Origin: Qipengyuania sp. SS22
GTDB lineage: Bacteria; Pseudomonadota; Alphaproteobacteria; Sphingomonadales; Sphingomonadaceae
Direction of reading: 5' to 3'
Assembly (NCBI RefSeq): GCF_025736935.1
Contig: NZ_CP107048.1
Span: 1,488,001 to 1,552,000, forward strand
DNA: 64,000 bases
Shown here: positions 3,067 through 3,730 of the stretch, piece by piece
Layout: each line of letters begins with the position of its first letter
Numbering within the stretch: position 1 is the first letter of the stretch
The notes under the pieces: generated by a model
Databases searched by the model: none
What the model was told of the DNA's origin: nothing
Seen by the model: only the letters and a program-made list of their open reading frames with translations
Made by a program: the position numbers and the translations under genes

Positions 3067-3288
3067 TCAGTCGGCGATCAGCCCGATCGCGAGGTAGATC
3101 AGGATGAAGCTGCCGAAACCGAGCAGTGTGCCTGCGACGAACCCGATACGAACCCAGGTAACGTCGATACCGAAGTAGCGGGCAATGCCGGAGCAGACGC
3201 CCATCAGCTTGCCGCCAGTGCGATCGAGCGCGAAGCTCTTGCTGGGACGGACGGCACGGTCTTCATCGCGGTGCTTCAGCTGGCTCAT
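3067..3288 (-). CDS. PspC domain protein, small inner-membrane protein
   Basis: 73 residues. A basic N-terminal stretch is followed by a PspC domain, recognisable from LDRTGGKLMGVCSGIARYFG and DVTWVRIGF, then one hydrophobic span (FVAGTLLGFGSFILIYLAIGL). PspC proteins sit in the inner membrane and take part in the phage-shock (envelope stress) response. No pspA, pspB or pspF is seen nearby, so this is a stand-alone PspC-domain gene. Its ATG (3286-3288 on the reverse strand) overlaps the stop of a 38-residue microprotein by four bases, so the two are translationally coupled. Confidence 0.9.
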   Translation of the reverse strand: MSQLKHRDEDRAVRPSKSFALDRTGGKLMGVCSGIARYFGIDVTWVRIGFVAGTLLGFGSFILIYLAIGLIAD

Positions 3289-3401
3289 ACGATCACTCCA
3301 TTGGGCGAGGCCGGGAGGATAGCCGTGGCGAAGGCCACTGCCGAGAGTACGAGCGAGAAGGCAGCTGCGAAGAGCTTGTTGCCGTTTTCCGAGTTGAACA
3401 T
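3285..3401 (-). CDS. 38-residue membrane microprotein, second of a tandem pair
   Basis: A short gene beginning MFNSENGNKL and ending PASPNGVIV. It has a polar N-terminus, then a hydrophobic stretch at about 11-30. The ribosome binding site GGAAAGGA lies 4-11 bases before the ATG. The stop TGA overlaps the pspC ATG (ATGA). It is clearly related to the 39-residue product 41 bases upstream: both have N-x-N-K/R, AA-x-F, SAV, A-I-V/L-PASP-x-G-x-I. No known function is recognised. The strong Shine-Dalgarno, stop/start coupling and paralogy make it a real gene. Probably a single-span inner-membrane peptide of a stress operon (inference). Confidence 0.8.
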   Translation of the reverse strand: MFNSENGNKLFAAAFSLVLSAVAFATAILPASPNGVIV

Positions 3402-3442
3402 AATTCCTTTCCTTTCGATGCGAGTGGGTGTGATCGGGACGA

Positions 3443-3562
3443 TCAGGCGATGAAACCGGCGGGGCTGGCGGGGACGATCGCAGCGGCCATGAAGACGGCC
3501 GAGATGCTGAGAGCGAAGATGGCGGCGAGAGCGCGGTTGCTGGCGTTTTCGAAGGTGTTCAT
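3443..3562 (-). CDS. 39-residue membrane microprotein, first of a tandem pair
   Basis: Begins MNTFENASNR and ends PASPAGFIA. A hydrophobic stretch covers about residues 11-30, and there is no recognisable signal-peptidase site. A near-ideal ribosome binding site (AAGGAGA) lies six bases before the ATG. It is first in the reverse-strand operon microprotein-microprotein-pspC and about 50 bases downstream of the predicted sigma-54 transcription start. It is paralogous to the next gene, sharing the SAV and PASPxGxI motifs. Function unknown. A longer open frame extends upstream but has no support, because the Shine-Dalgarno fixes this start. Confidence 0.8.
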   Translation of the reverse strand: MNTFENASNRALAAIFALSISAVFMAAAIVPASPAGFIA

Positions 3563-3623
3563 TGTGGTTCTCCTTGATCCTTGGTTTGTTTGGCCCCGGG
3601 TCATCCGGGATATCCCAATGATT

Positions 3624-3638
3624 GCAACGGGTGTGCCA
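3624..3638 (-). promoter_or_regulatory. Sigma-54 (-24/-12) promoter of the microprotein-pspC operon
   Basis: Reading the reverse strand from 3638 to 3624 gives TGGCACACCCGTTGC, followed by A and preceded by TT. This matches the sigma-54 consensus YTGGCAC-N5-TTGCW, with the invariant GG and GC separated by exactly 10 bases. The predicted start is near 3612, giving a leader of about 50 bases before the first microprotein. Sigma-54 control of psp genes through PspF is established in enterobacteria, which fits the PspC gene in this operon. Confidence 0.8.
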
Positions 3639-3711
3639 AACTCGAAAAACCGCAGATTTCCGCCATTTCTTGCTGAACAGCCCGGCCCCGCCCTGTTCAT
3701 CAATCCGAAAG

Positions 3712-3730
3712 GTTGGGAAATTTCCCCAAC
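3712..3730. promoter_or_regulatory. Imperfect palindrome upstream of the sigma-54 promoter, possible enhancer-binding site
   Basis: GTTGGGAAA and TTTCCCCAAC abut as an inverted repeat with one extra C in the right arm. It lies about 100-118 bases upstream of the predicted sigma-54 start, the usual distance for an activator (bEBP) site. It is also 62 bases before the recF start, so it could serve that gene instead. A second, weaker repeat (GAACAG 3675-3680, CTGTTC 3693-3698) lies between. Functional assignment is inference. Confidence 0.4.

Follow-up and report, generated by a model that had tools for sequence, protein, structure and literature searches.

Very few targets of PspF are known; in E. 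coli they are given as the psp operon and pspG only (according to the text of PMC9239133), with two UASs at pspA and one at pspG (as stated in PMC3709507). According to PMC3068692, E. coli PspC binds both PspB and PspG, with residue G48 mattering for PspG; a PspC 1-68 fragment fails to bind PspA, for which the leucine-zipper region that follows is needed; and PspC made in excess reduces the proton-motive force except when PspB accompanies it. The pspG gene has a second, unlinked PspF/sigma-54 promoter and encodes a small inner-membrane protein of 80 residues, an arrangement that the locus described here would resemble; directly behind it, the sRNA gene pspH is annotated in E. coli K-12 (L301:1140-1250). 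The word stems 'sphingomon' and 'erythrobacter' are missing from the main text of two comparative Psp studies (PMC9239133, PMC11237479). The present analysis concerns Erythrobacter-related marine bacteria, in which PspF, the membrane-damage regulator, appears to turn on a small operon.

The operon lies on the minus strand of a 64,000-nucleotide stretch of Qipengyuania sp. SS22 DNA, the window of this study, where a sigma-54 site, the microprotein genes MP1 and MP2 and a gene for a PspC-domain protein follow one another between positions 3638 and 3067:

3713-3729, no strand assigned: candidate PspF UAS TTGGGGAAATTTCCCAA with the dyad TTGG-N9-CCAA, conserved in spacing and common to the psp locus
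3639-3667, minus strand: conserved proximal element AATGGCGGAAATCTGCGGTTTTTCGAGTT, directly 5' of the -24 box, from the consensus of 56 genus promoters
3638-3624, minus strand: predicted sigma-54 -24/-12 promoter TGGCAC-N5-TTGC, TGGCACACCCGTTGC, an exact match to the pattern, with the element present at 59/60 genus loci
3562-3443, minus strand: MP1, predicted membrane microprotein of 39 residues, MNTFENASNRALAAIFALSISAVFMAAAIVPASPAGFIA, supported by conservation and dN/dS
3401-3285, minus strand: MP2, MP1 paralogue of 38 residues, MFNSENGNKLFAAAFSLVLSAVAFATAILPASPNGVIV, with a stop overlapping the PspC start, supported by conservation and dN/dS
3288-3067, minus strand: short PspC-domain membrane protein of 73 residues, without the PspC C-terminal region, identified by PF04024

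With two paralogues and a PspC-domain gene, this arrangement differs from that of E. coli pspG, and the 38-39-residue microproteins are, by eye, unlike PspG. A preliminary description made from the window alone had read a sigma-54 site with a 10-base GG/GC spacing, two microproteins of 39 and 38 residues sharing SAV and PASPxGxI motifs, and an overlap of the MP2 stop with the start of a PspC gene, and each of these readings stands: the spacing in TGGCACACCCGTTGC is 10 bases, both motifs are present in both peptides, and the ATGA joining MP2 to the PspC-domain gene lies at 3288-3285. Furthermore, RBS-like AAGGAG and AAAGGA sequences precede MP1 and MP2, respectively.

The naming of the third gene as a PspC protein holds for the domain (PF04024, E 1.6e-17, 63.5 bits, above the gathering cut-off of 25) and not for the full length, as the product consists of the PspC domain only and does not reach the cut-off set for TIGR02978, the PspC equivalog model (57.3 bits vs 104, over model positions 6-59 of 121). 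Aligned with E. coli PspC, the short protein runs no further than the second hydrophobic segment; the domain is thus common to both, whereas the C-terminal half is missing from the short PspC. Its best named relative, 99% identical, belongs to Qipengyuania citrea strain H150; a structure model of the short PspC is poor (mean pLDDT 57) and was set aside, and a sequence search of the PDB returned no relative. An Rfam search of the window found one tRNA and nothing else.

Sigma-54 promoter, upstream palindrome and the psp locus

Taken alone, the sigma-54 motif is weak evidence, since TGGCAC-N5-TTGC has 11 exact matches genome-wide vs 3 for the reversed control; within the window it occurs once, against an expectation of 0.21 and at least one occurrence in 21 of 100 shuffles. 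The motif by itself was therefore dropped as proof of a promoter. In our sequence comparison it is conservation, not the bare motif, that is decisive in setting the predicted promoter above chance: the -24/-12 element, whose conservation the preliminary description had proposed to check, was found at 59/60 genus loci ([TC]TGC at 51 of them, a different base ahead of TGC at the other 8), the missing case (L073) being a locus that ends at a contig edge. The genome carries a single rpoN copy, away from the psp locus (PF04552, E 1.4e-67). Directly upstream of the -24 box, positions 3639-3667 and their equivalents hold a GGCNGAATTCNGCC-like inverted repeat and a T-tract in the microprotein promoters, partly common to psp promoters.

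A second element, absent from the preliminary description, is the palindromic 17-mer TTGGGGAAATTTCCCAA, which starts 91 bp upstream of the T of TGGCAC. With up to two mismatches it occurs at two places in the 2.68-Mb genome, the MP operon and the psp operon beside pspF, at distances of 75 bp and 74 bp from TGGCAC, respectively; at the other 9 exact TGGCAC-N5-TTGC sites of the genome, the best palindrome match is 10/17. Among the 50 scorable of the 51 genus loci retrieved with the first promoter pattern, TTGG-N9-CCAA is perfect at exactly -91 in 40, carries one mismatch in 8 and has no match in 2. The 8 genus loci retrieved with a looser pattern, which itself required no more than three palindrome mismatches, were tallied by eye: six are free of mismatches, a seventh carries a single one and the last carries two. 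In named genomes, 58 of the 64 loci holding relatives of the short PspC have the promoter, and the 6 that do not (L224-L229) are the sole non-sphingomonad records of the set. The palindrome is present with at most two mismatches, as the best of nine offsets, in 56 of these 58 promoter-bearing loci (52 at exactly -91, two at -90 and two at -92), its region being cut off or masked in the remaining two. The 64-locus and genus counts are not independent, because some genomes sit in both sets. The palindrome was also considered as a promoter element of recF (named by eye), a reading that we dropped because it lies at an equal distance from sigma-54 sites near ruvC/yebC-like genes (likewise named by eye) and beside pspF.

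In E. coli, the best UAS-like 17-mers, selected as the top matches with no control for chance, comprise two 13/17 sites at pspA (-101 and -81, a spacing of 20 bp) and one site at pspG (-68), as compared with -91 in the MP operon; they fit the two UASs at pspA and one at pspG given in the text of PMC3709507.

The pspF gene and a divergent pspA-pspB-pspC operon of the same genome, all scoring above their NCBIfam cut-offs (PspF against TIGR02974, 464.6 bits, cut-off 443.55), lie approximately 80 kb from the MP operon and outside the window, and the genome thus encodes a separate full PspC besides the short one. The earlier statement that no pspA or pspF lies nearby is accordingly true of the window and untrue of the genome. 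The psp operon likewise combines a -91 palindrome, a sigma-54 site, a microprotein gene at its head and an ATGA overlap, and differs in its other products, which are PspA, PspB, the full PspC and additional small membrane proteins. Its head gene, MP3, which goes beyond the preliminary description, encodes a 50-residue microprotein whose stop overlaps the next start; at approximately 30% identity to MP1 and MP2, its sequence is suggestive of homology with them. A microprotein-type head gene was listed by script in 24 of 30 psp loci examined, drawn from 57 genus genomes with a psp match. Within the genus, the left half of the -91 site at psp is degenerate (ATAG, not TTGG) and is followed by TTGGCAA...ACCAA at -71.

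Behind pspC of this genome's own psp locus (L011:4674-6491) we observed six tandem ORFs of 80-113 residues, mutually alike, with hydrophobic N-termini and charged tails, one of which gives a weak PspB match below cut-off.

The microproteins and their distribution

A DNA search returned matches in all 60 genus genomes, and the synteny check by tblastn proposed at the outset bears out the arrangement, with MP1, MP2 and the PspC-domain gene occurring together in 60/60 (50 by an ATGA-anchored script and 10 by tblastn, which recovered all three genes at loci where PspC had escaped the script's motif). Over 50 loci, Nei-Gojobori dN/dS for moderately close pairs is 0.37 for MP1, 0.30 for MP2 and 0.27 for PspC, while out-of-frame pN/pS is 1.1 and 1.7 for MP1, 1.4 and 1.6 for MP2 and ranges from 1.1 to 1.7 over the operon genes. 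Together, dN/dS and the off-frame controls exclude the microproteins as spurious ORFs. Mean orthologue identity over the 50 loci (64% for MP1 and 68% for MP2) exceeds that between MP1 and MP2 within one genome (47%), so the duplication, as judged from these sequences, probably predates the genus.

With E allowed up to 1, no model of Pfam or NCBIfam is matched by either microprotein, nor is a PHROGs family at 0.1, and searches of open-access literature brought up no paper that we recognised as a description of them. The arrangement itself is common in Erythrobacteraceae. In the AlphaFold model of MP2 (mean pLDDT 74.6), a single helix spans residues 4-28 and the tail is extended; across 50 loci the final residue of the microproteins is A in 92/100 and V in 8/100.

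Copy number varies from one to three per operon. Three genomes (G009, G018 and G033) hold a second locus with the palindrome, a sigma-54 site and two microproteins of the 36-residue class; no PspC gene was found within the stretch read at these loci (L083, L084 and L085), and genes that by eye resemble ruvC/yebC adjoin them. In one further genome (G178, L289-L292), two contigs each carry near-identical microprotein genes at either end, which probably reflects a repeat or an overlap where the assembly breaks.

These data bear on whether MP1 and MP2 might be merely leader ORFs that set PspC translation, with peptides lacking a function of their own, as their position at the head of the operon and the ATGA coupling of MP2 to PspC could be taken to indicate. 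We find this quite improbable: the amino acid sequence itself is under purifying selection, MP1 is uncoupled, copies number one to three per operon, and the second loci, where microprotein pairs without PspC stand behind their own palindrome and sigma-54 promoter, argue against a mere leader role.

To follow the promoter architecture beyond the genus, we combined both elements into one composite pattern (TTGG-N9-CCAA, 72-76 bp, TGGCAY-N5-YTGC), which finds 65 sites in 58/249 genomes of the family, as compared with 0 for the reversed pattern. It finds no psp promoter within the genus itself, because of the degenerate left half of the palindrome there. Sixty of the 65 sites were examined, the other five being within the genus and covered elsewhere in the analysis. 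By script, 22 have a divergent sigma-54 activator gene, 23 a microprotein and PspC, 5 a microprotein only, 4 PspC only and 6 other genes. Revised by hand from the ORF lists, with checks of doubtful sites, the same 60 divide into 25 psp-type sites (the script's 22 plus L254, L276 and the second L271 site, each then followed by a pspA-like gene), 27 with a microprotein and PspC, 2 with a microprotein only (L247, L262), 4 with a PspC-like gene and no microprotein seen, and 2 without assignment (L270, L279); 33/60 sites thus head microprotein and/or PspC-domain operons. In the four PspC-like cases, the match is above the Pfam cut-off at L273 and L280, rests on a motif at L275 and is a remnant below cut-off at L263. 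At this last locus (G172:C1:3800-6300), two short ORFs behind the composite divide the PspC domain between them, through either decay to a remnant or a sequencing error.

At least 16 of the psp-type sites adjoin a TIGR02974 (PspF) match, among the matches listed. A microprotein gene follows the psp-type site in 8/22 cases by script, and in three more, from other genera (L241, L271 and L283), the psp head gene fuses a microprotein-like hydrophobic N-terminus to a TonB-type C-terminal domain (PF13103 above cut-off in 3/3, PF03544 in 2/3). In appearance the products of these genes resemble MP1 and MP2, which may point to homology.

The TonB-type fusions and the short conserved tail behind the helix, with its near-invariant last residue (A 92/100, V 8/100), would also accord with the microproteins being precursors cleaved near VPA-SP, which by the usual signal-peptide rule we take to be the cleavage site, to release a short periplasmic stress signal or ligand. 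A standard cleavage site is not clear by eye in many members, and we regard such processing as unlikely.

Matches to a microprotein model, a few of them weak, occur in 64/249 family genomes, a count that may be slightly high because weak matches inside long ORFs (as at G000:C1:261054) are probably due to chance. PspF is above cut-off in 231/249 family genomes, and microprotein and composite site are both absent from all 15 genomes without a clear PspF (best E above 1e-90); the hypergeometric p values for co-occurrence with PspF, which ignore phylogeny, are 0.010 and 0.016, and 4e-4 for the union. One genome (G124) holds both microprotein and composite despite an intermediate PspF match (E 1.7e-123), its best, which we take to be below cut-off.

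Class-wide, the composite is found in 5/385 genomes, two of them of the same family, and at the three other places no microprotein or PspC gene is found among ORFs starting within 300 bases downstream. The microprotein model likewise matches in 5/385 genomes, again two of them of the same family, and two of the three non-family matches lie inside ORFs of 373 and 479 residues. With these counts, a spread beyond the family was dropped.

The enhancer-binding protein at the palindrome could in principle be one other than PspF, with the promoter still sigma-54 dependent, as the genome encodes further Sigma54_activat proteins (9 matches in total, two of them weak). This is very unlikely in view of the composite adjoining a listed PspF gene in at least 16 genomes, its absence from the 15 genomes without a clear PspF, and the fact that the genome's sole other good palindrome match is the psp locus itself. 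We infer that PspF is the protein bound at the palindrome.

A model for the operon

Comparison across genomes shows that the MP and PspC-domain genes are conserved and under coding selection, and that palindrome and putative promoter stand at fixed spacing. The sigma-54 control proposed from the window for the microproteins and PspC is supported by conservation in the family and by a palindrome common to the pspF-pspA region, and dependence of the operon on both sigma-54 and PspF is what these sequences predict. Because the palindrome-sigma-54 composite also heads psp operons beside pspF in other genera, we consider it likely that the MP operon is a second, unlinked PspF/sigma-54 (phage-shock) operon encoding two microproteins and a short PspC.

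In such a model, damage to the inner membrane would free PspF from PspA, whereupon PspF would bind the palindromic UAS at -91 and activate sigma-54 polymerase at TGGCAC-N5-TTGC, jointly with the psp operon. The transcript would give rise to two single-span membrane microproteins, probably with the N-terminus inside and a short hydrophobic C-terminal tail outside, and to a PspC-domain-only protein made by translational coupling to MP2. Stress induction, membrane insertion and topology of the products are all put forward here as features we infer; the N-in/C-out orientation is suggested by analogy, since psp head genes carry a TonB-type C-terminal domain after the hydrophobic stretch.

Contact with PspA depends in E. 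coli on a C-terminal part of PspC that is missing from the short PspC, which would therefore be unable to relay a signal to PspA. With low certainty, we propose that the short PspC may act instead as a signalling-deficient membrane effector and that MP1 and MP2, made first from the same message, may partner it across the membrane in the way that PspB and PspG partner E. coli PspC. In alignment, E. coli G48 corresponds to G57 of the short PspC and to a serine in the genome's full PspC.

The microproteins might instead depolarise the membrane and so slow the cell during stress. Their short, hydrophobic, single-helix form and predicted stress control would suit such a role, and E. coli PspC lowers the proton-motive force when overproduced (as described in PMC3068692). 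This reading is hardly probable given their predicted co-transcription with envelope-protecting genes and the retention of two copies in 60/60 genus genomes.

Returning to the model of a PspF-controlled operon with membrane partners for PspC, we suggest more tentatively, and with rather less than even confidence, that the microprotein family is the usual head gene of PspF operons in Sphingomonadaceae, has spread by duplication and serves as tuners or neutralisers of PspC, a layer without counterpart in E. coli. If this is true, the family would head the psp operon in many genomes, sometimes as a TonB fusion, and duplicates would have spread to palindrome/sigma-54 operons of their own, some of which include a signalling-deficient PspC and some of which do not.

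A single element at fixed spacing predicts a wider PspF regulon across a whole bacterial family, made up of microproteins for which Pfam and NCBIfam hold no model, and the composite offers a ready pattern for finding PspF targets. The short PspC would provide a natural test of the PspC domain without its PspA-contacting part, and a known stress response would be extended by a new and so far unnamed family of membrane microproteins.
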